From Betaproteobacteria bacterium (GTDB lineage: Bacteria > Pseudomonadota > Gammaproteobacteria > Burkholderiales > Burkholderiaceae_C): a DNA stretch of 40,091 bases. Positions 24,807 to 35,165 of this stretch are shown here, piece after piece. Location: NCBI GenBank assembly GCA_947448675.1, contig CANFOR010000002.1:1-40091 (forward strand), given 5' to 3'. The translations under genes and the position numbers were made by a program. The notes beneath the pieces were generated by a model. It ran no database searches. It had not been told where the DNA came from and was given only the letters and a program-made list of their open reading frames with translations. Numbering within the stretch: the first letter of the stretch is position 1; each line of letters begins with the position of its first letter.

Positions 24807-26999
24807 TTAGTTATTCCAGCCAAAAATGCTGAACACAAAAGCGCGCCCCTGCGAAGACCGAATGCCGATTTCACGGTAATCGCCAGCCGAGCCAGCAACC
24901 AATGAGGGGATAGCAGTAGGCACAGGGCCCGCAGGTATGCTGATCACAGCATTTGTCGGGCTGTTATTGGTCGAATACGCCGCAGCCACATTGCTGGTGT
25001 AGTTCCACTTGTTCGTAGTGAAGGTGCCCGCAGCGCCCTTGGGGCTACGCTCTTCGGCATAGATATAAGCCACATCAACCGGAGGCGAATTCAAATTATT
25101 GGTCCATTGAATGGTGGCACTGGTAATACTGCCTTGCGGCGCCGTGACCAAAGCCGCAGAGCGCGATAAATCATTCACCGGCAAACCGAGCGCATTGCTT
25201 GGCGACACAATGGGGGCCAAAATCCGCGCGTATTCAATGGCCTCGGGCGTCGTATTGCCTTGGTTGCTATTTAAGAAAAATTCAAAAGTATATTTGCTAT
25301 ATGCAATGAACGGAGAAAAATCTGTTACCGCTGGAATGGCAAACGCATTGCCACCGCTTACGCCCACAGCGCCTGTGCTGGTAGGCCAGTAGCCGCTAAA
25401 CAATGCCGTTCCATCCAACGCAACTGCGTTTAAGCGGAATGAATTGCTAGCAAGAGCGGTCACCATCGGCGTCGTATCCACCTGGCCAATGCTGTTGTGC
25501 ACGCTAAAGGTGGTTTGGCCCGCTACGCTCGATGGGGTCATCACCACGCCCGGCGCTGGCAAACCAGGGCCAGTAACACGCACCGCACGTATATTGGCAT
25601 TCACATAGGTTTTAGTAGGTATGTCGTACCGCATAGAGTCCACATAGAAGCGAATCTGTGTGCGCATATACGATGGATTGCTGCCCGAGGTATTGCTTTG
25701 TTTTGCCGGGTTTTGTTGTGAATAGCGTTCATACCTTGGATTAAGGCTGAATTGAAAATTGCGCTGGTTACCATGCAAGATCCAATTGCCCGCATTGGCA
25801 CGCGTCAAGGTATCGTCACGTTTAAAAACCAAGACCTGGGTGTATTCCACAGGCGTTGCCACCGCACCATTAGGCCCATTGGAGCCAATGAACGGTTGCC
25901 GAATAGTGAACTCCACCACAGCCAAGTCGTCATAGGCGGCCGCACTGCCAGCGTATTTGCCAACAAACAGTAGCACTGGGTTGCGAAAGCTGCTACCCGC
26001 CACCGCCGTGGTGTTGGTATCGCTCAAGAGCGTACGAAATTCTTCGCCGAAGTCTTTGCTGTTGTGCATAAAGTTGAGCGATGCGCGGCGTGTGCCATCG
26101 GCATCTTGGCAGGCCACATCAGCCTGCCTTGCAGTAGAGCTTGTAATTGCCAAGCAACGGTTAATTTCATTCGTCCAGGCCTGCAGTTTGCTAAATGTTA
26201 GAACCGGGTTATTGGGCGTTGCTACCAAATTAGTAGCTAGCGGCGTAGCCGCAGTAATCAAACTCGTGGTGTCTACGTTGACCAGCTTGGCACGCAATTG
26301 CGTTGCGCCAGTGTTCGGGTCGCGGGTGTGGCTAACCGACTCGATCAAGGCGTCTACGCCGGTGCCGTCGTAGGCATAGGGTGACTTGATCGGGTCAAAC
26401 ACGGTGCTGGTTACGCCTGCTGCGCCCAATGCCGCGCGTACCGAAGTGAGTAAATCTTTCTTGGCTTGGGCCAATTTGGCCATGTCGATTTTGGAGCCGT
26501 CAAAGTTTTTGTCGGTGCCGGGCACGCCGCTGGAGACCACCGCGTCGGACACGATTTTGTCTGTCAGCGGATTGATCATGATGCGCACGGCTTTGCCTGC
26601 CACCGCGCTCTCGTCGGTCACCGATGTGAGCACGTTGCCGCCTGCGTCTACTACCTTGGCGACAATGGGCGAGGTGAAGTTGGAGAACTTCACAAAGTAG
26701 ACGCCATTGTCGTCAGTGAGGCCGCTGACCGACTTGCCGGTTGCGTCGGTCACTACCACCACCGCTTTGCGCAATGGCGAGCCATCGCCCGCACCACCAC
26801 CTGCGCCCGAGCTGCCGCCTCCGTCTCCACCGCCACTGCCATCGACGTAGCCAAAAGATGTCGCAGACAAATCGACCACGCCTTGGGGGGCCAGCGGGTC
26901 TACGGCAGCGGGAGCCGAGCCACCGCCACCACCGCAGCCGGCCAAAAACCCTGCGGCAGCCAGAGTGGCCGACAAGGTGATGAGTTGAATCCGATTCAT
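24807..26999 (-). CDS. Large hypothetical lipoprotein with Gly-rich linker and carboxypeptidase-regulatory-like N-terminal region
   Basis: Signal 'LSATLAAAGFLAGC' lipobox then GGGGG and 'GSGGGDGGGSSGAGGGAGDGS' linker; 'RKAVVVVTDATGKSVSGLTDDNGVYFVKF' resembles a CarboxypepD_reg-like beta domain. Rest unrecognised. Confidence 0.75.
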   Translation of the reverse strand: MNRIQLITLSATLAAAGFLAGCGGGGGSAPAAVDPLAPQGVVDLSATSFGYVDGSGGGDGGGSSGAGGGAGDGSPLRKAVVVVTDATGKSVSGLTDDNGVYFVKFSNFTSPIVAKVVDAGGNVLTSVTDESAVAGKAVRIMINPLTDKIVSDAVVSSGVPGTDKNFDGSKIDMAKLAQAKKDLLTSVRAALGAAGVTSTVFDPIKSPYAYDGTGVDALIESVSHTRDPNTGATQLRAKLVNVDTTSLITAATPLATNLVATPNNPVLTFSKLQAWTNEINRCLAITSSTARQADVACQDADGTRRASLNFMHNSKDFGEEFRTLLSDTNTTAVAGSSFRNPVLLFVGKYAGSAAAYDDLAVVEFTIRQPFIGSNGPNGAVATPVEYTQVLVFKRDDTLTRANAGNWILHGNQRNFQFSLNPRYERYSQQNPAKQSNTSGSNPSYMRTQIRFYVDSMRYDIPTKTYVNANIRAVRVTGPGLPAPGVVMTPSSVAGQTTFSVHNSIGQVDTTPMVTALASNSFRLNAVALDGTALFSGYWPTSTGAVGVSGGNAFAIPAVTDFSPFIAYSKYTFEFFLNSNQGNTTPEAIEYARILAPIVSPSNALGLPVNDLSRSAALVTAPQGSITSATIQWTNNLNSPPVDVAYIYAEERSPKGAAGTFTTNKWNYTSNVAAAYSTNNSPTNAVISIPAGPVPTAIPSLVAGSAGDYREIGIRSSQGRAFVFSIFGWNN

Positions 27000-27067: not shown

Positions 27068-27088
27068 CTTGAACATCCTATGTTCTAG
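27068..27088. promoter_or_regulatory. Operator-like dyad in the lipoprotein/caspase divergent region
   Basis: CTTGAACAT-CCT-ATGTTCTAG: perfect GAACAT-N3-ATGTTC core, plus two more pairs beyond one mismatch. Confidence 0.5.
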
Positions 27089-27150
27089 GGATGCGCATTT
27101 ACGAAAAACCTGCTAGGGTTAAAGCCATCTATCGTTCCCATTGGATTCCT

Positions 27151-29304
27151 GTGCGTTCATTTATTCAAAACTTTCTAGCTGCCTGCTCCCTTGCTCTGCT
27201 CTGTGCAGCCCCTGTGCAAGCCCAAAATGCCGAGCGCGTCGCCCTGGTGGTGGGCAATTCGGCTTATCGCACTGCGCCTTTGTTCAATCCGCAAAACGAC
27301 GCCAAGGCAATGTCCAATCTTTTGCGCAACGCAGGTTTTGCAGTGGACCAGCAGGTAGACACCAGCTTAGATGCCTTGCAAAATGCAGTGGCGCAATTTG
27401 GCAAAGCCATTGCCGACCCTAAAGTGAAATTTGCGGTTTTTTACTACGCAGGCCACGGCGTGCAGCTGGACTGGCGCAACTACTTGGTGCCGGTAACGGC
27501 CAACATCCGCACGGCCGAAGACGTGCGCAACCAGACTGTCGACGTGAGCAGTTTGTTGGCCTATATGGGTGCGGCTAAAAACAAAAACTACATCATTATT
27601 CTGGACGCTTGCCGAGACGACCCTTTTGCAGGCGCCTACCGCGCGCCTGCAAAAGGCCTGAGCCAGTTTGACGCGCCAGTTGGCAGTGTATTGGCCTATT
27701 CCACCTCCCCCGGCAAGGTGGCTTTAGACGGCGAAGGCAGCAACGGTTTGTACACCGCTTATTTGCTAAAAGAGTTTGCCGTAAAAGGCGTAAAAATTGA
27801 AGACGCATTTAAGCGCACCCGTTTGAACGTACGCTTAGCCTCAAACGGTGCGCAAGTCCCGTGGGAAACCACCTCGCTCGAAGAAGACTTGTACCTGTTC
27901 CCCGAGGCCCGCAAACATTTAAGCGACGCCGAGCAAGACACCCTGCTTGAGCAAGAGCTACAAGCTTGGGCCAAGGTGAAAAACAGCAACGACTTTTTAG
28001 CGCTAGCCGAGTTCATCCGCGTCTACCCCAGTGGCAGCGTGAGCGAACTGGCGGCCTCGCGCATGAACCGTTTGCTGAGCGTTGCGCATGAGCGCGAGTC
28101 GCGCGGTTTGGTGGCCAAGTCGGCGTCTTTGCAGGCTGCCGAGCTAGAACGTACGTCACGTGAAGAAGCCTTGCGCCTGGCTGCAGAAAAGGCCGAGGCC
28201 AGCCGCGTGGCTGCCGCACAAGCAGAAGCTGCGCGCCAAGAAGCACTGCAGGCCGAGACCACCCGGCAAGAGACACTGCGCGCCGAGACCCAGCGTGCGC
28301 AGGCCGTGGCCGCGCAGCGTGAAGCGCAGGCCCAAGCCGAGGCTCAGGCCCGATGGGCACAAGCGCAAAGTGAGCAGGCGCGGGCCGAGCACATGCGCGT
28401 TGAAAGCGCACGCGCTGAGGCGGCGCGGCAAGAGGCCTTGCAAACGGCGCAGCGCGCGCAAGAAGCTGCAGCGCGGCAACAGGCCCAACGGGCACAGGCC
28501 GAGCGTGAGCAAGCAGCGCGGCAACAAGCGCAGCAAGAAGCCGCCCGAGCCGCGCTTGCTGCCGAGCAAAGCGCACGGCAGCAAGCCGAGGCCGCCCGCG
28601 CGGCACTGCTGGCGGTCCAGCAAAATGAGCTAGCAAAACAGGCTGCAGCGCCCGTCAGTACTGCGCAGACAGCTCCTATTTTGATAGCATCTGCAACCAG
28701 CGAAGTGCTGGCCAGCACGCCCTACTTCAGCGGCGCGACCGAACACTTGCGCCGCTACAGCGTGGGCGACAGCTTTAGCTTTCGCGTGATCGACCAGTTC
28801 AACAAAAGCAGCAAACCGCTAGAGATGCGCGTCACCGCACTCGACTTTGCCACCGACCAAGTGCAGTTCAACAACGGCGAATATGTGGCCGACCTGATGG
28901 GCAACATCTTGACCAATTTGCGCGGCAGCTCCAGTACACCGCGCCAGTTCTACCCGGCCGACATGTTGGTGGGCAAGCGCTGGCGCACCCAGTTCAAACA
29001 GGTGCGCGCAGCAGCGGGCGTCACCTACACCTTTCGCTACGACCTCAAAGTGGTGGGCAAAGAACGCGTCACCGTACCAGCGGGAACCTTTGACTGCTTC
29101 AAGATCGAAGCGCGCGGCTACAACATGGAACTTGGCGCTCGCCTAGAGCGCAATATTTGGGTCGCCCCCGGCGTGAACGCCGATATTGCCCACGAAACCT
29201 TGGTGCGCCTGCGCAACGGGCAGATCGAGCAAAACGAGCGCCAAGAGCTGGTGAGCTACAAACAAACTGCGCCAGTGCCTGGCTCTTCGCTGGCGAGCCG
29301 TTGA
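27151..29304 (+). CDS. Exported caspase family (peptidase C14) protein with Ala/Gln-rich coiled-coil and C-terminal beta-rich domain
   Basis: 'RVALVVGNSAYRTAPLFNPQNDAKAM', catalytic-dyad motifs 'FYYAGHGVQLDWRNY' (His at 27454-27456) and 'ILDACRDDPF' (Cys at 27610-27612). ORF opens at 27091; GTG 27151 gives a clean signal peptide (RSFIQNFLAACSLALLCAAPVQA). Confidence 0.88.
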   Translation: MRSFIQNFLAACSLALLCAAPVQAQNAERVALVVGNSAYRTAPLFNPQNDAKAMSNLLRNAGFAVDQQVDTSLDALQNAVAQFGKAIADPKVKFAVFYYAGHGVQLDWRNYLVPVTANIRTAEDVRNQTVDVSSLLAYMGAAKNKNYIIILDACRDDPFAGAYRAPAKGLSQFDAPVGSVLAYSTSPGKVALDGEGSNGLYTAYLLKEFAVKGVKIEDAFKRTRLNVRLASNGAQVPWETTSLEEDLYLFPEARKHLSDAEQDTLLEQELQAWAKVKNSNDFLALAEFIRVYPSGSVSELAASRMNRLLSVAHERESRGLVAKSASLQAAELERTSREEALRLAAEKAEASRVAAAQAEAARQEALQAETTRQETLRAETQRAQAVAAQREAQAQAEAQARWAQAQSEQARAEHMRVESARAEAARQEALQTAQRAQEAAARQQAQRAQAEREQAARQQAQQEAARAALAAEQSARQQAEAARAALLAVQQNELAKQAAAPVSTAQTAPILIASATSEVLASTPYFSGATEHLRRYSVGDSFSFRVIDQFNKSSKPLEMRVTALDFATDQVQFNNGEYVADLMGNILTNLRGSSSTPRQFYPADMLVGKRWRTQFKQVRAAAGVTYTFRYDLKVVGKERVTVPAGTFDCFKIEARGYNMELGARLERNIWVAPGVNADIAHETLVRLRNGQIEQNERQELVSYKQTAPVPGSSLASR
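28641..28688 (-). repeat. Dispersed element, copy 6 (inside first caspase CDS)
   Basis: Reverse complement GCTAT CAAAATAG GAGCT GTCTGCGCA GTACTGACGGGCGCTGCAGCC; last 15 nt identical to copy 5. Confidence 0.65.
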
Positions 29305-29314
29305 GCCAGCCAGA

Positions 29315-30817
29315 TCAAGGCGACTTCTGTAGCGCAACCATGACCGACGAAGAATATTCTGTGATTTTTCCGTTATTACGAAACAATAGATCACTGCGCA
29401 CGATCATCATGGTTTTAGGATCAATCCAACTTGTTCCCGTTTGCACGGTAACGCCATTTCTGCCGACTGCTCGGCCATTGCGCTCTACCTTGAAAGCCAT
29501 GATTTTTCCGATCGGTAAATCAAGCTCTTCAAGCGCCACAATTTTGGCATCCCAGTAATTGTTGGTGCTGTTTTGTCCGTCACGGGTATTGACAAAAGTA
29601 GAGCGCCACTTTTTACCAATGGCCAGATCGGCGGGTACTTGCAAGATGGCCGGATCTTTTGTGCCCAGCCGATTTTTCACCACGCCACCCATTTGATCGA
29701 GCTCTGCCTCGCCGCCATTCAGAATCACGCGCACGTCGTCCGCTGCAGTAACTTTGTAGACATTGCGGCTGGTAACAGCGTTGCTGAAACCGTCACGTAA
29801 CTCCATGGTGAAACTATCACCAACCTTGTAGCGGTTGGCACCTGCAGCCAAGGCTGTGATGCCTTGCTTATTGGGCCCCAAAACAATAGCGGCTTTTTGG
29901 AGTCGGTCTACAGCAAACTGCGCTTGCTCGCTGATGCTGCCGTTGGGGTATTTTTGTAAATACGCATAAAAGTCATCGGCGCTCTTGCTGTCTTTGATCT
30001 TGTCCCAATCGGCCTTCTCTAGCGCAAAGGATTTTTCTTTGACCGAGTCGTCTAGTGGCTGGCTGGGTTTGAGACCTGAGTTGAAATAAAAGTCGTCTTC
30101 CAGGCTGGTGCTCTCCCACGGGATCTGCCGCCCCTGGCTCTGCTTGCGCACGTTCAGGCGCACGCGCTTGAAGACATCTTCAATTTTGGCGCTGGGCTTT
30201 TTCAACTCTTCCAGCAAATACTGCGTGTAAAGGCCATTGCCGCTTTTGCTGTCGCCGTCTTCGGCCACATTGCCGGGCGCGGTGGCGTAGGCCAAAAAGG
30301 TGCCCGGTGGTGCGTCGAGCTGGGCTAGACCTTTGCCGCTGGCGCTGCCTCCAAAAGGGTTGTCGCGGCAGGCGTCGAGCACCACGATGTTCATGCGGTT
30401 GCCTGCGGTTTTAAAGGCTTCAATGACTTGCGCCAATTCCACGGTTTGCGCGGGCACGTCGGCAGCTTGCCTGAGTTTGGCGTCTACCGGCACCATGTAG
30501 TTGCGCCAGTCGAGCTGCAGTCCATGGCCCGCGTAGTAGAGCATACCAATGGCTTGTTTGCCCTTCAAGTTGGCTTGCACTTGCGCAATGGCTTCGCTCA
30601 TTTGGGTTTTGGAGCCGTCGCGTACCTCCACCACCGTAAAGCCCAAACCGCGCAAGACTTCGCCCATGGCTTTGGCGTCTTTGGTGGGGTTGTCCAGCGC
30701 AGCTGCACCGGCATAGGCCGCATTACCAATCACCAGCGCAATGCGCACGTCGGTCGGGGCTTGGGCCGCGGCGCTGAGCGCCGTGAGCGCAAGGGCGGCA
30801 ACCAGGCTGCGCATCAA
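29315..30817 (-). CDS. Exported caspase family (peptidase C14) protein, paralogue of the convergent gene
   Basis: Signal peptide 'MMRSLVAALALTALSAAAQA'; 'RIALVIGNAAYAGAAALDNPTKDAKAM', 'LYYAGHGLQLDWRNYMVP', 'VLDACRDNPF'. Confidence 0.92.
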   Translation of the reverse strand: MMRSLVAALALTALSAAAQAPTDVRIALVIGNAAYAGAAALDNPTKDAKAMGEVLRGLGFTVVEVRDGSKTQMSEAIAQVQANLKGKQAIGMLYYAGHGLQLDWRNYMVPVDAKLRQAADVPAQTVELAQVIEAFKTAGNRMNIVVLDACRDNPFGGSASGKGLAQLDAPPGTFLAYATAPGNVAEDGDSKSGNGLYTQYLLEELKKPSAKIEDVFKRVRLNVRKQSQGRQIPWESTSLEDDFYFNSGLKPSQPLDDSVKEKSFALEKADWDKIKDSKSADDFYAYLQKYPNGSISEQAQFAVDRLQKAAIVLGPNKQGITALAAGANRYKVGDSFTMELRDGFSNAVTSRNVYKVTAADDVRVILNGGEAELDQMGGVVKNRLGTKDPAILQVPADLAIGKKWRSTFVNTRDGQNSTNNYWDAKIVALEELDLPIGKIMAFKVERNGRAVGRNGVTVQTGTSWIDPKTMMIVRSDLLFRNNGKITEYSSSVMVALQKSP

Positions 30818-32712
30818 CGCAACTCTTCAATGGCGAAGCTCGCTGCGCCGTAAGCGTCAGAGCACAGCGCATTGTTTTTACGCGCCGCCGGGCTGGCGCA
30901 TTCGCTGCTCGCTGCGGCGCTGGCGCTGCTCATCAGCGCGCCGAGTTGGGCGCGGCCTTGCGCGTCGTTGAGCGAGGTCATGAACGGGCCTTCTTTGCCT
31001 GCAGCGAGCGCGCCTAAGTCGCGCGGGCTGTCGGCCACGATCACCAGCAAGTTGTTGCTGCCCGCTGGGCCTTGCGCTTTGACGCGCCAGCTGCTGCGCG
31101 GCAGGGCCAGGGTTTGGCCAGCTTGAATTTTGTTGTTGGCGTCGAGCGCGTTGGGGAACAGCAGGTACAGGGCTTTGTTGTCCGAGCCCGCCAGCGCCAC
31201 ATAGACATAGCCCGCGCGCTCGGACTGCACCGAAAAGTCCAAATAGTCTTGGCCGATTTTCAGCTTCTCTTTGCCCACAGTTACGCGCACATTGCGCTTG
31301 GCGTCGCGCTGCGCAAACATTTGCTGCAGCGCTTGCGCGCCAGAGAGTGGCGCGGGCTCTGCGACCGCTACAGGTTTAATAGCTGCAGACGCAGCATTAG
31401 CGGGCATTGCAGGCATTGCCACCGGCTTCACGCTCGCCAAGTCCATAGCCGGAGCCGCAGGCACGCCCTGGCTGAACCACGCGGGCACAAAGCCGGTGTT
31501 GCCCGACAGGGTGATGTTGTGCGCCTTGTAGCTGGGATCGTTTTGCATGCGGTTGTTGAGCTTGTCTTGCGCGCACATGCGGATTTCTTCCACGCTGATG
31601 GCGCCCGAGCCGTCAAGGTCTTTGGCGTCGCGCAGCATGCAGTCGCGCATGAACTCGGTCGCTAGGCCGCCTTTTTGCTCGTCGTCAAAACTGATCTCGT
31701 TGTCGCGCGCGGCCGAGATGTGGATGATGTCTTGCGGCAGCGCGCCCTTGCTCTGCGCCTCGACCACCAGGTTGCGAGTTTTGACGTTGCTGGGCTTGCC
31801 GCATTCTTCTGAAATGCTGGCAAATTTGGGCCGCAGCTTGCCCTCGTCACCAGGGATGGAGATGCCGCGTGTGCGCACGGTCGAGGCATTGGCCACAATG
31901 CCGCCCGAGTGGCAGGCGTCGTACATCACCATCAGCTTGTCGGTTTTGTTGGTAATGGGCTTGAGCAGCTCGGCCATTTCGCGGTTGGTAATGGTGCCGG
32001 GCCAGCCGCCGTCGTAGGCCAACAGCGCTTCAACACAGCCGCCCGCTTGCGTGTCTTGGAAGCGCGTGCCGTGGCCGGAGTAGTGAATGAAGACCTTGTC
32101 GCCGTCGAGCACATCTTCGTTCAAAGCCTTGATGGCGGCGCGAATGTTGTCGCCGGTGGCCTGCTCGTCTTGCAGGTAGGTGATGTTGCTCTTGGGCACT
32201 TGCATGGCCAAGGCCATTTGGGTGGCGCTCTCGCGGTCGATCTTGGCACCGGGCAGGGCGGGCGTGTTGGGGTCGGCGTAGTGGCTGATGCCGATGATGA
32301 GCGCATGCCGGTTGCTGCGCGCAGGCAGGCTGCGCACGCCCAGGGTCATGGCGGTGTTGCTGGCCAAGGTGGCTTGGCGGCCATTGTCTTGCAGCGCGGC
32401 CAGCGAGCTGCCTGCCGACAGGTTGAGCGCCGAGGCCCGCACCCAGCCCAAGCGGCCCGCCGCCTCCACATAGACCCAGCCGCCCTCTAGGCTGAGCACG
32501 CGCAGCGCAGCGCCAGGGGCCAGCGGGGCCAGCACCGCCGCGCCGGGCAGTTTGTCGGCGCGCAACTCCGTGGCGCGCAGCACACTGCTGGCCGCTCCAG
32601 GGGCGTTTACAACCCCGTTGCCAGCCCCAGCAGGGGCTTGCGCGTGGGTGGGCAAGGCCAGGGCAGCCAAAGCGCAAAAAGTGGCCGCTACGGCGGTTTG
32701 AAAGGGCTTCAT
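30814..32712 (-). CDS. Exported metacaspase-like protein with N-terminal SH3-like region, EF-hand-like loop and C-terminal DUF4384-like region
   Basis: Signal peptide; 'LRVLSLEGGWVYVEAAGRLGWVRASALNL' SH3b-like; 'HALIIGISHYADPN', 'IHYSGHGTRFQD', 'VMYDACHSGGIV'; 'DLDGSGAISVEE'; 'VYVALAGSDNKALYLLFPNALDANNKIQAG'. Confidence 0.9.
   Translation of the reverse strand: MKPFQTAVAATFCALAALALPTHAQAPAGAGNGVVNAPGAASSVLRATELRADKLPGAAVLAPLAPGAALRVLSLEGGWVYVEAAGRLGWVRASALNLSAGSSLAALQDNGRQATLASNTAMTLGVRSLPARSNRHALIIGISHYADPNTPALPGAKIDRESATQMALAMQVPKSNITYLQDEQATGDNIRAAIKALNEDVLDGDKVFIHYSGHGTRFQDTQAGGCVEALLAYDGGWPGTITNREMAELLKPITNKTDKLMVMYDACHSGGIVANASTVRTRGISIPGDEGKLRPKFASISEECGKPSNVKTRNLVVEAQSKGALPQDIIHISAARDNEISFDDEQKGGLATEFMRDCMLRDAKDLDGSGAISVEEIRMCAQDKLNNRMQNDPSYKAHNITLSGNTGFVPAWFSQGVPAAPAMDLASVKPVAMPAMPANAASAAIKPVAVAEPAPLSGAQALQQMFAQRDAKRNVRVTVGKEKLKIGQDYLDFSVQSERAGYVYVALAGSDNKALYLLFPNALDANNKIQAGQTLALPRSSWRVKAQGPAGSNNLLVIVADSPRDLGALAAGKEGPFMTSLNDAQGRAQLGALMSSASAAASSECASPAARKNNALCSDAYGAASFAIEELR
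31367..31414 (+). repeat. Dispersed element, copy 7 (inside metacaspase-like CDS, antisense to it)
   Basis: GCTAC AGGTTTAA TAGCT GCAGACGCA GCATTAGCGGGCATTGCAGG. Confidence 0.6.
31585..31620 (-). other. EF-hand calcium-binding loop motif inside the metacaspase-like CDS
   Basis: Encodes D-L-D-G-S-G-A-I-S-V-E-E, a 12-residue DxDxSGxIxxxE loop. Confidence 0.8.
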
Positions 32713-34418
32713 TGGGGGTCTCCTGTGGAATCGAATCGGGGAAACTGCTGGCTGGCCGCCAGTGCCAGGCGCACCAATTCGGCGCGGCTACAGGGCGTGG
32801 GCAGGCTTTGCAGAGGCGCACTGCGCAGGCGGGGCGCGGGCGCTTGCGCTGTTTCCTGCGCAAGCGCCTGCTGCAGGCGCAGCAGTTGCACGGCGGGCCC
32901 GAGCACGGCGGCGTATTGGGCGATCTCGGGCCAGTGCAAACGGCCCGGCCAGCTGACCTGGGCGTCGGCGCAAACCAAGCGACAGTCGGGTGCCTGGGCC
33001 TCGAGCGCGTCCATCAGGTGGTCGAGCGCAGCATTGGCCAAGGCCTCGGGGGCGTGCAGTGGCAGCAGCGCGTAAGCCGCTTGCGTTGCGGCTTCTGGCG
33101 CAGCCTCGCCCCAGCCTGGCGGCAGGCTGCACCAATGGCTGCGCCGCCAGCCGTTCCAAATGCGCAGCGCGCTCAAAAACAGCAGGGCAATGCTGGCCGA
33201 CAGGTTCAGGTCGACAAACACTGGCGCGCCGTGCAGGCTGAGGTAACTCAGGCCCAGCAAGGCGCCGGGCAAGAGCAGCAGCGCCGCATCGAGCGAGGCA
33301 ATGCCGCGGCGCTGCACCCAGGCCGCCACACCCAGGCACAGGGCTACGGCCAGCAGGGCTTGCAGGCTGCGCGGCAGCTCGGCCAGGTGGCGCTGGTGCA
33401 GGGCGTTGTCGGTGGCGGTGGCCAAGCTGTCGACGCCCTGCTGCAGCGGGGCCAGGGGCGTGGGGTGCATGTCGTGCAGGCTGGGCGCGGTCGAGCCTAC
33501 CAAGACCACCTTGCCGGCAAAGCTGGGCAGGGCTTGGCGCGGCGTGCCGCCTTCGGCCTTGGCAAACACGTCGGCAAAAGGCACGCGCGGGTACATGTCG
33601 GCCTTGGCGCGCCAGGCCAACAACCCATGCTCGTAGCCAAAAACGCCTACAAGGCCCGTATTTTGTGCGTTAGCAGCTATTTTTTTTGTAGCACCCGCAG
33701 CTAGGCTCACTTCGCCGTTGACAAGCCGCGCCACGGCCAAGGCCAGCGACTGGATGGCGCTGCCGTCGGCCAATGGCTCAGCGTAGCGGTAGCGGCGCAG
33801 CACGCCGTCGGCGTCGGGCGTACCGTTGTTCAGCCCCAGCGGGCCTGCCGCCAGCGCGGGCAGCACCGGCGGTATGGCGGCCAGCGTGAGCGTGAGCGTG
33901 GCGTGGCGCGTCGGGGCCGGTGGCAACCACAGCCCCGGCAGGCTGCTGCGCGCCAACTGGCTTTGCGCGTCGTTGGCAGCGGGCAGGCGCACCACCGAGA
34001 ACACGCTGTGCACGCTGCGCTTGGCGGCTTCGTCAAAGGCTTTGTCGCCGCCGGGCGAGAGCTTGTCAGCGTCGCTAAACCCAATGTCCCAAGCGATGGC
34101 GGCGGGGCTCTGTTGTTCGATGAAGTCGAGCACCGTGGCCAAGGTGTCGCGCGGCCAGGGCCAGCGGCCAAACTCAGCGCCCATGCGCGCCAGCGAGGCC
34201 TCGTCGATGTCCACGATGACGATGCGCGTGTCGGGCGGGGCGGCGTAAAGGCGGGCCCGCACCATGGCGTCATAGGTCGAGCGCGACAGGCCGCTAGAGA
34301 CCTGCAGCACAAAACCGTCGGCCACCGCCCATAGCGAAAACACCAAGGCCAAAAGCCAGGTAACGCGCCGCGCAGGCCAACGGCCCAGGGCCTGCGTGAG
34401 GCTTTGCCAAGGTTTCAT
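32709..34418 (-). CDS. CHASE2 domain membrane protein with unrecognised C-terminal domain
   Basis: 'STYDAMVRARLYAAPPDTRIVIVDIDEASLARMGAEFGRWPWPRDTLATVLDFIEQQSPAAIAWDIGFSDAD', 'GKVVLVGSTAPSLHDMHPTPLAPLQQGVDSLATATDNAL' CHASE2 hallmarks followed by TM helices; no GGDEF, HisKA or cyclase motif seen. Confidence 0.9.
   Translation of the reverse strand: MKPWQSLTQALGRWPARRVTWLLALVFSLWAVADGFVLQVSSGLSRSTYDAMVRARLYAAPPDTRIVIVDIDEASLARMGAEFGRWPWPRDTLATVLDFIEQQSPAAIAWDIGFSDADKLSPGGDKAFDEAAKRSVHSVFSVVRLPAANDAQSQLARSSLPGLWLPPAPTRHATLTLTLAAIPPVLPALAAGPLGLNNGTPDADGVLRRYRYAEPLADGSAIQSLALAVARLVNGEVSLAAGATKKIAANAQNTGLVGVFGYEHGLLAWRAKADMYPRVPFADVFAKAEGGTPRQALPSFAGKVVLVGSTAPSLHDMHPTPLAPLQQGVDSLATATDNALHQRHLAELPRSLQALLAVALCLGVAAWVQRRGIASLDAALLLLPGALLGLSYLSLHGAPVFVDLNLSASIALLFLSALRIWNGWRRSHWCSLPPGWGEAAPEAATQAAYALLPLHAPEALANAALDHLMDALEAQAPDCRLVCADAQVSWPGRLHWPEIAQYAAVLGPAVQLLRLQQALAQETAQAPAPRLRSAPLQSLPTPCSRAELVRLALAASQQFPRFDSTGDPQ
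33634..33692 (-). repeat. Dispersed element, copy 8 (inside CHASE2 CDS)
   Basis: Reverse complement GCTAC AAAAAAAA TAGCT GCTAACGCA CAAAATACGGGCCTTGTAGGCGTTTTTGGCTA; aligns without gaps to copy 9. Confidence 0.75.
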
Positions 34419-34432
34419 GCGAAGCGCATTTC

Positions 34433-34491
34433 GCTACAAAAAAAGTAGCTTACAACGCATACTTCATGCGCCTTGTGGGCGTTTTTAGCTT
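34433..34491 (+). repeat. Dispersed element, copy 9 (OmpA-CHASE2 intergenic)
   Basis: GCTAC AAAAAAAG TAGCT TACAACGCA TACTTCATGCGCCTTGTGGGCGTTTTTAGCTT. Confidence 0.75.
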
Positions 34492-34505
34492 TGGAAAGCA
34501 AGGCT

Positions 34506-35165
34506 TTAGTCCAGGTTGACGATGCGTACGCGGCGGTTTTCTGCAGCGTTGGGCTCGGCGCTGTTGGCCAGCTCGGTGGCGCCCTTACCAGCAGCGTGCA
34601 AGCGCTCGGGCTGGACGCCCAAGCTGGCCAGCACGGCCACCACGGCGTCGGCGCGCTGCTGCGACAAATGCAGGTTGTAGTCGGGCTTGCCCTTGGCGTC
34701 GGTGTGGCCCTCGACCGCAAAGGCCGAGGCGCTGAGCGCGGGCGACCGCAGGGCCTGGGCCAAGTTGGCCAGGGCTTGCTGGCTCTCGGCCTTGACGCGG
34801 GCGGAGTTGAAGTCAAACTGGATCAACAGCGAGAGCGTGGGGCGGGCTGCAGGTGCGGCTGGTGTTGGCGTAGCAGCGTTTTGCACGGCCAGCTTTTGGC
34901 CCGCTGCTGGCTCGGCACTGGCTGCGGGCGCTGCCTCCACCGCCAGATTGCGCAGGCTGCGGGTGCGGGGCGCGTTGGCGCTGGGTGCGGCAGGCGGCGC
35001 GGCACGCAATTGCTCGATCATTTGCTCGGCGCTGGGCGTGGCCAGGGTTTGCGCCCATGCGCCGCTGCTCGCGCTGGCCCCAGCAAAAACGGCACAGGCA
35101 ACCAAGGCAGCACCTTGGGCAAAGCGTAAAAAGGCGGCGCGCGCGCGAAGTACAGTTGGTTTCAT
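34506..35165 (-). CDS. OmpA-family (peptidoglycan-binding-like) exported protein
   Basis: 'LIQFDFNSARVKAESQQALANLAQAL...FAVEGHTDAKGKPDYNLHLSQQRADAVVAVLASLGV...NRRVRIV'. Start set at MKPTVLRAR (35165), giving a signal peptide. Confidence 0.9.
   Translation of the reverse strand: MKPTVLRARAAFLRFAQGAALVACAVFAGASASSGAWAQTLATPSAEQMIEQLRAAPPAAPSANAPRTRSLRNLAVEAAPAASAEPAAGQKLAVQNAATPTPAAPAARPTLSLLIQFDFNSARVKAESQQALANLAQALRSPALSASAFAVEGHTDAKGKPDYNLHLSQQRADAVVAVLASLGVQPERLHAAGKGATELANSAEPNAAENRRVRIVNLD

Follow-up and report, generated by a model that had tools for sequence, protein, structure and literature searches.

A conserved gene set joining predicted exported caspases to a CHASE2 receptor and an OmpA-like protein in relatives of Comamonas and Acidovorax: a candidate trans-envelope protease bridge

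Bacterial relatives of the caspases have been studied mostly as cytoplasmic proteins of stress, death or defence, and CHASE2 receptors are usually, if not essentially, fused to a kinase or cyclase output. Fusions of caspases with CHASE2 and with DUF4384 are already known in cyanobacteria; that of Trichodesmium erythraeum joins CHASE2 to a caspase predicted to be cytoplasmic (PMC3501461, PMC2853523). Anchoring across the envelope has an experimental example in Acidovorax citrulli, where the outer-membrane protein TssW binds and positions the kinase PpkA at its periplasmic domain (PMC12607579). Here we describe a locus in a 40,091-nucleotide stretch of DNA (the window): genes for an OmpA-like protein, a CHASE2 receptor and two caspase homologues, casp3 and casp2, run in one direction, and a third caspase gene, casp1, is convergent to them. 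No publication of this OmpA/CHASE2/casp3/casp2 operon was found in the open-access literature. With moderate confidence, we propose that the locus encodes a protease bridge spanning the envelope from CHASE2 through casp3 to the OmpA-like protein.

The host assembly (2.7 Mb in 286 contigs; closest matches in the Comamonadaceae) holds four caspase genes, three of them at this locus (Table 1). Pfam placed the OmpA, CHASE2 and three Peptidase_C14 domains where an earlier reading made from the sequence alone (hereafter the sequence-only reading) had put them; the five genes stand as listed there apart from minor changes of start positions and of one overlap. That reading also described two ATGA overlaps; the one between CHASE2 and casp3 is indeed ATGA, whereas casp3 and casp2 meet at TGATG. 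A gap of 87 bp separates the OmpA-like and CHASE2 genes, so that a single transcript of all four co-directional genes is only putative. Scanning for promoters and terminators gave results at chance level, and an Rfam scan returned no match. The divergent lipoprotein, suggested earlier as a possible partner, is a weak candidate, since a relative of it adjoins the OmpA gene in just one other genome (locus L025).

Table 1. Features of the locus, with window coordinates, strand and supporting evidence.
Feature	Position	Strand	Evidence
Divergent lipoprotein	24807-26999	-	Lipobox LAGC in sequence
casp1, convergent, predicted exported caspase	27091-29304	+	Pfam Peptidase_C14; alternative GTG start at 27151
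casp2, paracaspase-like Peptidase_C14	29315-30814	-	Pfam E 3e-40; H97/C149
TGATG overlap, casp3 stop/casp2 start (one shared base)	30812-30816	-	Sequence
casp3, SH3b + metacaspase-like Peptidase_C14 + DUF4384	30814-32712	-	Pfam; H214/C267; PDB metacaspases
ATGA overlap, CHASE2 stop/casp3 start	32709-32712	-	Sequence
CHASE2 receptor	32709-34418	-	Pfam E 1e-47; four hydrophobic segments
OmpA-like protein	34506-35165	-	Pfam OmpA E 4e-22; start = ATG at 35165
Linear motif conserved near the N-terminus of the OmpA-like protein (putative docking site for DUF4384)	34923-35039	-	Profile match E 3e-16; invariant L, R, R, N

The three caspases look both active and exported. Peptidase_C14 was found in all of them far above the cut-off (Pfam E-values of 4e-35, 3e-40 and 2e-21), each retains the catalytic His-Cys dyad within its GHG and DAC motifs, and a signal peptide is evident in each, both on inspection and by a simple heuristic, in agreement with what had been read from the sequence. 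The His and Cys are likewise kept in most of 85 caspase open reading frames, 73 of which carry a signal peptide by the same heuristic; several of the remainder have doubtful starts, gene starts across the loci having been called in this analysis. The nearest solved structure to casp2 is MALT1 (E 2e-13), and those nearest to casp3 are metacaspases. Invariant aspartates of casp2 (D46/D147) and casp3 (D159/D265) align with those of the MALT1 and metacaspase chains that form the acidic S1 pocket for Arg or Lys at P1; casp3 is a predicted Arg/Lys-specific protease. The only cysteine of casp2 is the catalytic one, and mature casp3 has six others, four of which are invariant among 27 sequences, patterns that fit an oxidising compartment, short of proof, and that together with the predicted signal peptides support the export proposed earlier. 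A C-terminal domain is common to casp2 and casp1; in the latter, whose C-terminus is DUF3108-like, it is separated from the caspase by some 200 Ala/Glu/Gln-rich residues weakly matching a TolA-like coiled coil. AlphaFold models of CHASE2 and casp3 were of low confidence (mean pLDDT 48 and 51). The fourth caspase of the genome (contig C258, locus L015, 2-1930), predicted from its N-terminus to be exported, bears MORN-like repeats and lies beside miaA. In one related caspase operon (L009, 3359-6153) a gene for a ShlB-type transporter adjoins that of a caspase-fold protein with GHG and without DAC.

The recurrence of CHASE2, caspase and OmpA genes together in other genomes, on which the sequence-only reading had chiefly staked its proposal, was borne out when casp3 and CHASE2 profiles were each run over the same 300 genomes of the family. 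A casp3 orthologue lies within approximately 3 kb of 20 of the 23 related CHASE2 proteins, spread over 15 genera; the gene set occurs in relatives of Comamonas and Acidovorax. CHASE2 and casp3 share a strand in all 22 loci fetched, overlap by ATGA in at least 11, and are accompanied on the same strand by a motif-bearing OmpA gene in 16 of the 22, two of the loci ending upstream (L009, L029) and one having the motif in another frame of its OmpA gene (L028). Identity of CHASE2 to the window protein falls to about 30% among the linked loci. As a control, approximately 150 top-scoring CHASE2 matches from 150 genomes of the order were inspected, and only one of them had a caspase match no more than 10 kb away, which argues that the linkage is not due to chance; no caspase was seen beside the CHASE2 relatives searched at the level of the class. 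The locus is enlarged in some relatives, by as many as four extra caspases in a tandem array, by TPR-CHAT proteins or a two-component pair, or by a ShlB-type transporter or Mla-type genes. A small exported protein recurs beside casp3 in L021-L023, L037, L038 and L041-L045 (cluster c5), the one member checked having no Pfam match. Flanking genes common to the window and its relatives (lipA-, hipA- and eamA-type genes in L021, eamA in L023, and LysR, PEPCK and modA in L045) point to vertical inheritance, and a plasmid search for casp3 found none.

The CHASE2 protein is predicted to consist of one transmembrane segment, a periplasmic CHASE2 domain, three further transmembrane segments and a C-terminus of about 150 residues; no Pfam domain was found after the last segment and thus no fused catalytic output. 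The SH3b module at the N-terminus of casp3 accompanies such receptors closely, being present in 20 of 22 casp3 loci with CHASE2 (and weakly in one more) versus none of 16 without it (Fisher 7e-9 with the 20 clear cases counted, a significance overstated by the shared ancestry of the genomes). Two CHASE2-casp3 loci, L033 and L034, have little or no SH3b, and a motif-bearing OmpA gene was not found in either. Elsewhere in the class, in families other than this one, seven loci (L058-L063, L066) show a comparable arrangement: an output-less CHASE2 gene is followed by one for an exported SH3b protein and then by one for an exported M48 protease, HExxH being present in all six proteases checked. The stand-alone SH3b protein matches the N-terminus of casp3 with 47% identity over 59 residues (E 4e-13) and, tail included, with a profile-profile probability of 98.5%, from which it appears that proteases of two different kinds are combined with the CHASE2-SH3b pair. 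We found no description of the CHASE2-SH3b-M48 operon in the open-access literature. The host genome also has an ordinary output-bearing CHASE2 locus (contig C128, L014, 505-7123), where a CHASE2-cyclase, FHA, PP2C and a CHASE2-Ser/Thr kinase stand in a row.

At the other end, the OmpA-like protein consists of a signal peptide, an MIEQL...RTRSL-RNL motif, a linker and a peptidoglycan-binding OmpA_C domain (PF00691); neither Pfam nor alignment revealed the N-terminal beta-barrel of an OmpA porin. The motif is absent from eight other OmpA-domain proteins of the same genome. Its profile gave 25 matches below 1e-4 in the 300 genomes, 24 of them near a DUF4384 gene (22 within approximately 6.5 kb of a caspase-DUF4384 and two near a kinase-DUF4384; one had neither in the fetched stretch), figures whose significance is overstated since the profile was built from these same loci and the genomes share ancestry. 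A looser form of the motif occurs in small OmpA proteins adjoining several kinase-DUF4384 genes and is missing from the TssL-type OmpA proteins of the same loci. A caspase is also present in five of the nine kinase-type loci with the motif; in L051, L053, L068 and L075 the motif accompanies DUF4384 kinases, and the stretch fetched contains no caspase. On an Azospirillum plasmid an OmpA gene with TRSL directly precedes a DUF4384 gene, and a nearby gene annotated as a caspase family protein ends in DUF4384. The occurrence of the motif follows that of DUF4384, be the domain part of a caspase, part of a kinase or on its own. In many of the kinases DUF4384 follows a transmembrane segment, a position that makes it probably extracytoplasmic. 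One such locus (L068, 8478-15391) groups a motif-bearing OmpA gene with genes for T6SS-type FHA, PP2C, kinase-DUF4384 and a papain-like protease.

The observed part of the proposed bridge comprises the linkage of the genes, the domains that they encode, the intact active sites and the co-occurrence of each of the two domain pairs; export, physical contacts, specificity, signal and targets are its inferred part, and topology is predicted. With SH3b paired with CHASE2, and DUF4384 with the OmpA motif, casp3 looks like a bridge from a receptor to a wall-bound anchor. The earlier suggestion that CHASE2 and OmpA-like proteins position the caspases is supported in a more specific form, that of these two pairings. 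CHASE2 would act as a receptor in the inner membrane, its sensor domain facing the periplasm; exported casp3 would couple to it through its N-terminal SH3b and dock through its C-terminal DUF4384 on TRSL-RNL in the OmpA-like protein, and the latter would fasten the whole to peptidoglycan. The trigger would be some envelope change, be it a CHASE2 ligand, wall damage or an altered spacing between membrane and wall, by which the predicted Arg/Lys-specific caspase would be set free or activated; the caspase might then cut envelope targets and perhaps activate casp2-type paralogues. More tentatively, the locus may represent a general trans-envelope switch built of interchangeable parts, in which a caspase could be joined to either end, an M48 protease to the CHASE2-SH3b end and a kinase to the OmpA motif-DUF4384 end; with a caspase, both ends would be united in one protein and give a periplasmic proteolytic response.

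The same bridge could serve another purpose, namely envelope quality control, in which a regulated periplasmic protease would maintain outer-membrane lipids and proteins as a housekeeping task, like the M48 versions, rather than mediate death or defence. The CHASE2-SH3b-M48 operons offer the parallel, and Mla-type lipid-transport genes occur in five of the 22 loci: MlaE precedes and MlaD follows CHASE2-casp3 in L033 (2-5133) and, with a TPR protein next to MlaD, in L034 (583-7191). Most loci, however, lack Mla genes and none was seen beside the window locus, and the several divergent caspases and TPR-CHAT additions resemble a response that can be tuned more than they do steady housekeeping. 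We consider this purpose possible but somewhat unlikely.

Our initial idea was that the OmpA-like protein is a substrate, the Arg-containing TRSL-RNL motif being a cleavage site whose cutting would free the anchor from the wall. Positively charged residues are those after which prokaryotic homologues of caspases cleave (PMC6426788), the motif of this exported neighbour holds two invariant arginines, and a caspase accompanies more than half of the kinase-type loci that bear the motif. The idea was demoted because the motif also adjoins the DUF4384 kinases of the four loci that had no caspase in the DNA fetched; moreover, its non-basic positions (T, L, N, L) are conserved as well, as expected for a docking site. 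We now regard cleavage at the motif as unlikely, and docking of DUF4384 remains the role that we propose for it within the bridge.

Bacterial caspases are often effectors, and the locus might be taken for one of programmed death or anti-phage defence with the caspases as killers: the PADLOC caspase model matches all three, and TPR-CHAT genes neighbour them in some relatives. Yet the EACC1 model of ternary conflict systems scores 56 and 30 bits against a curated 140, no NTPase, nucleotide sensor or gasdermin was found among the genes of the locus, the chromosomal neighbourhood is common to relatives, the plasmid search for casp3 gave no copies, and the predicted export of the caspases speaks against such a role. 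Defence was rejected as the main reading and is in our estimation improbable. That the caspase folds are exported scaffolds only, an option the sequence-only reading had left beside proteolysis and one that the existence of pseudo-orthocaspases (PMC6426788) and the missing Cys motif of a few distant relatives (L047, L048, L055) might suggest, is very improbable in view of the dyads kept in the window caspases and in most related copies.

If the proposed bridge is correct, caspase-type control would extend to the envelope through a conserved exported set wired to an inner-membrane receptor and to the wall. We found no description of such an extracytoplasmic use of caspase relatives in the open-access literature. 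The bridge would also supply specific candidate partners for three components that are poorly understood: output-less CHASE2 proteins, DUF4384 and exported SH3b modules.

Four systems come closest to the locus. It shares with the Trichodesmium erythraeum fusion the coupling of a caspase homologue to a CHASE2 receptor, and differs from that single protein in its separate genes, predicted exported caspases, SH3b, DUF4384 and OmpA-like partner. As in cyanobacterial orthocaspases (PMC7475262), caspase and DUF4384 are found in one protein; an OmpA partner, a signal peptide and the periplasm go unmentioned in that paper. The CHASE2-SH3b-M48 operons likewise combine an output-less CHASE2 with a homologous SH3b module and an exported protease, but have a metalloprotease in place of the caspase, and no DUF4384 or motif-bearing OmpA was seen in them. 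Finally, the arrangement resembles the TssW-PpkA axis (PMC12607579), in which an anchor in the outer membrane binds an inner-membrane effector by its periplasmic part and so positions it, and DUF4384 kinases with motif-bearing OmpA occur in T6SS-type loci of relatives. The effector of the TssW-PpkA axis is a kinase that serves the T6SS; the window locus and its checked neighbours contain no T6SS, kinase, PP2C or FHA gene.
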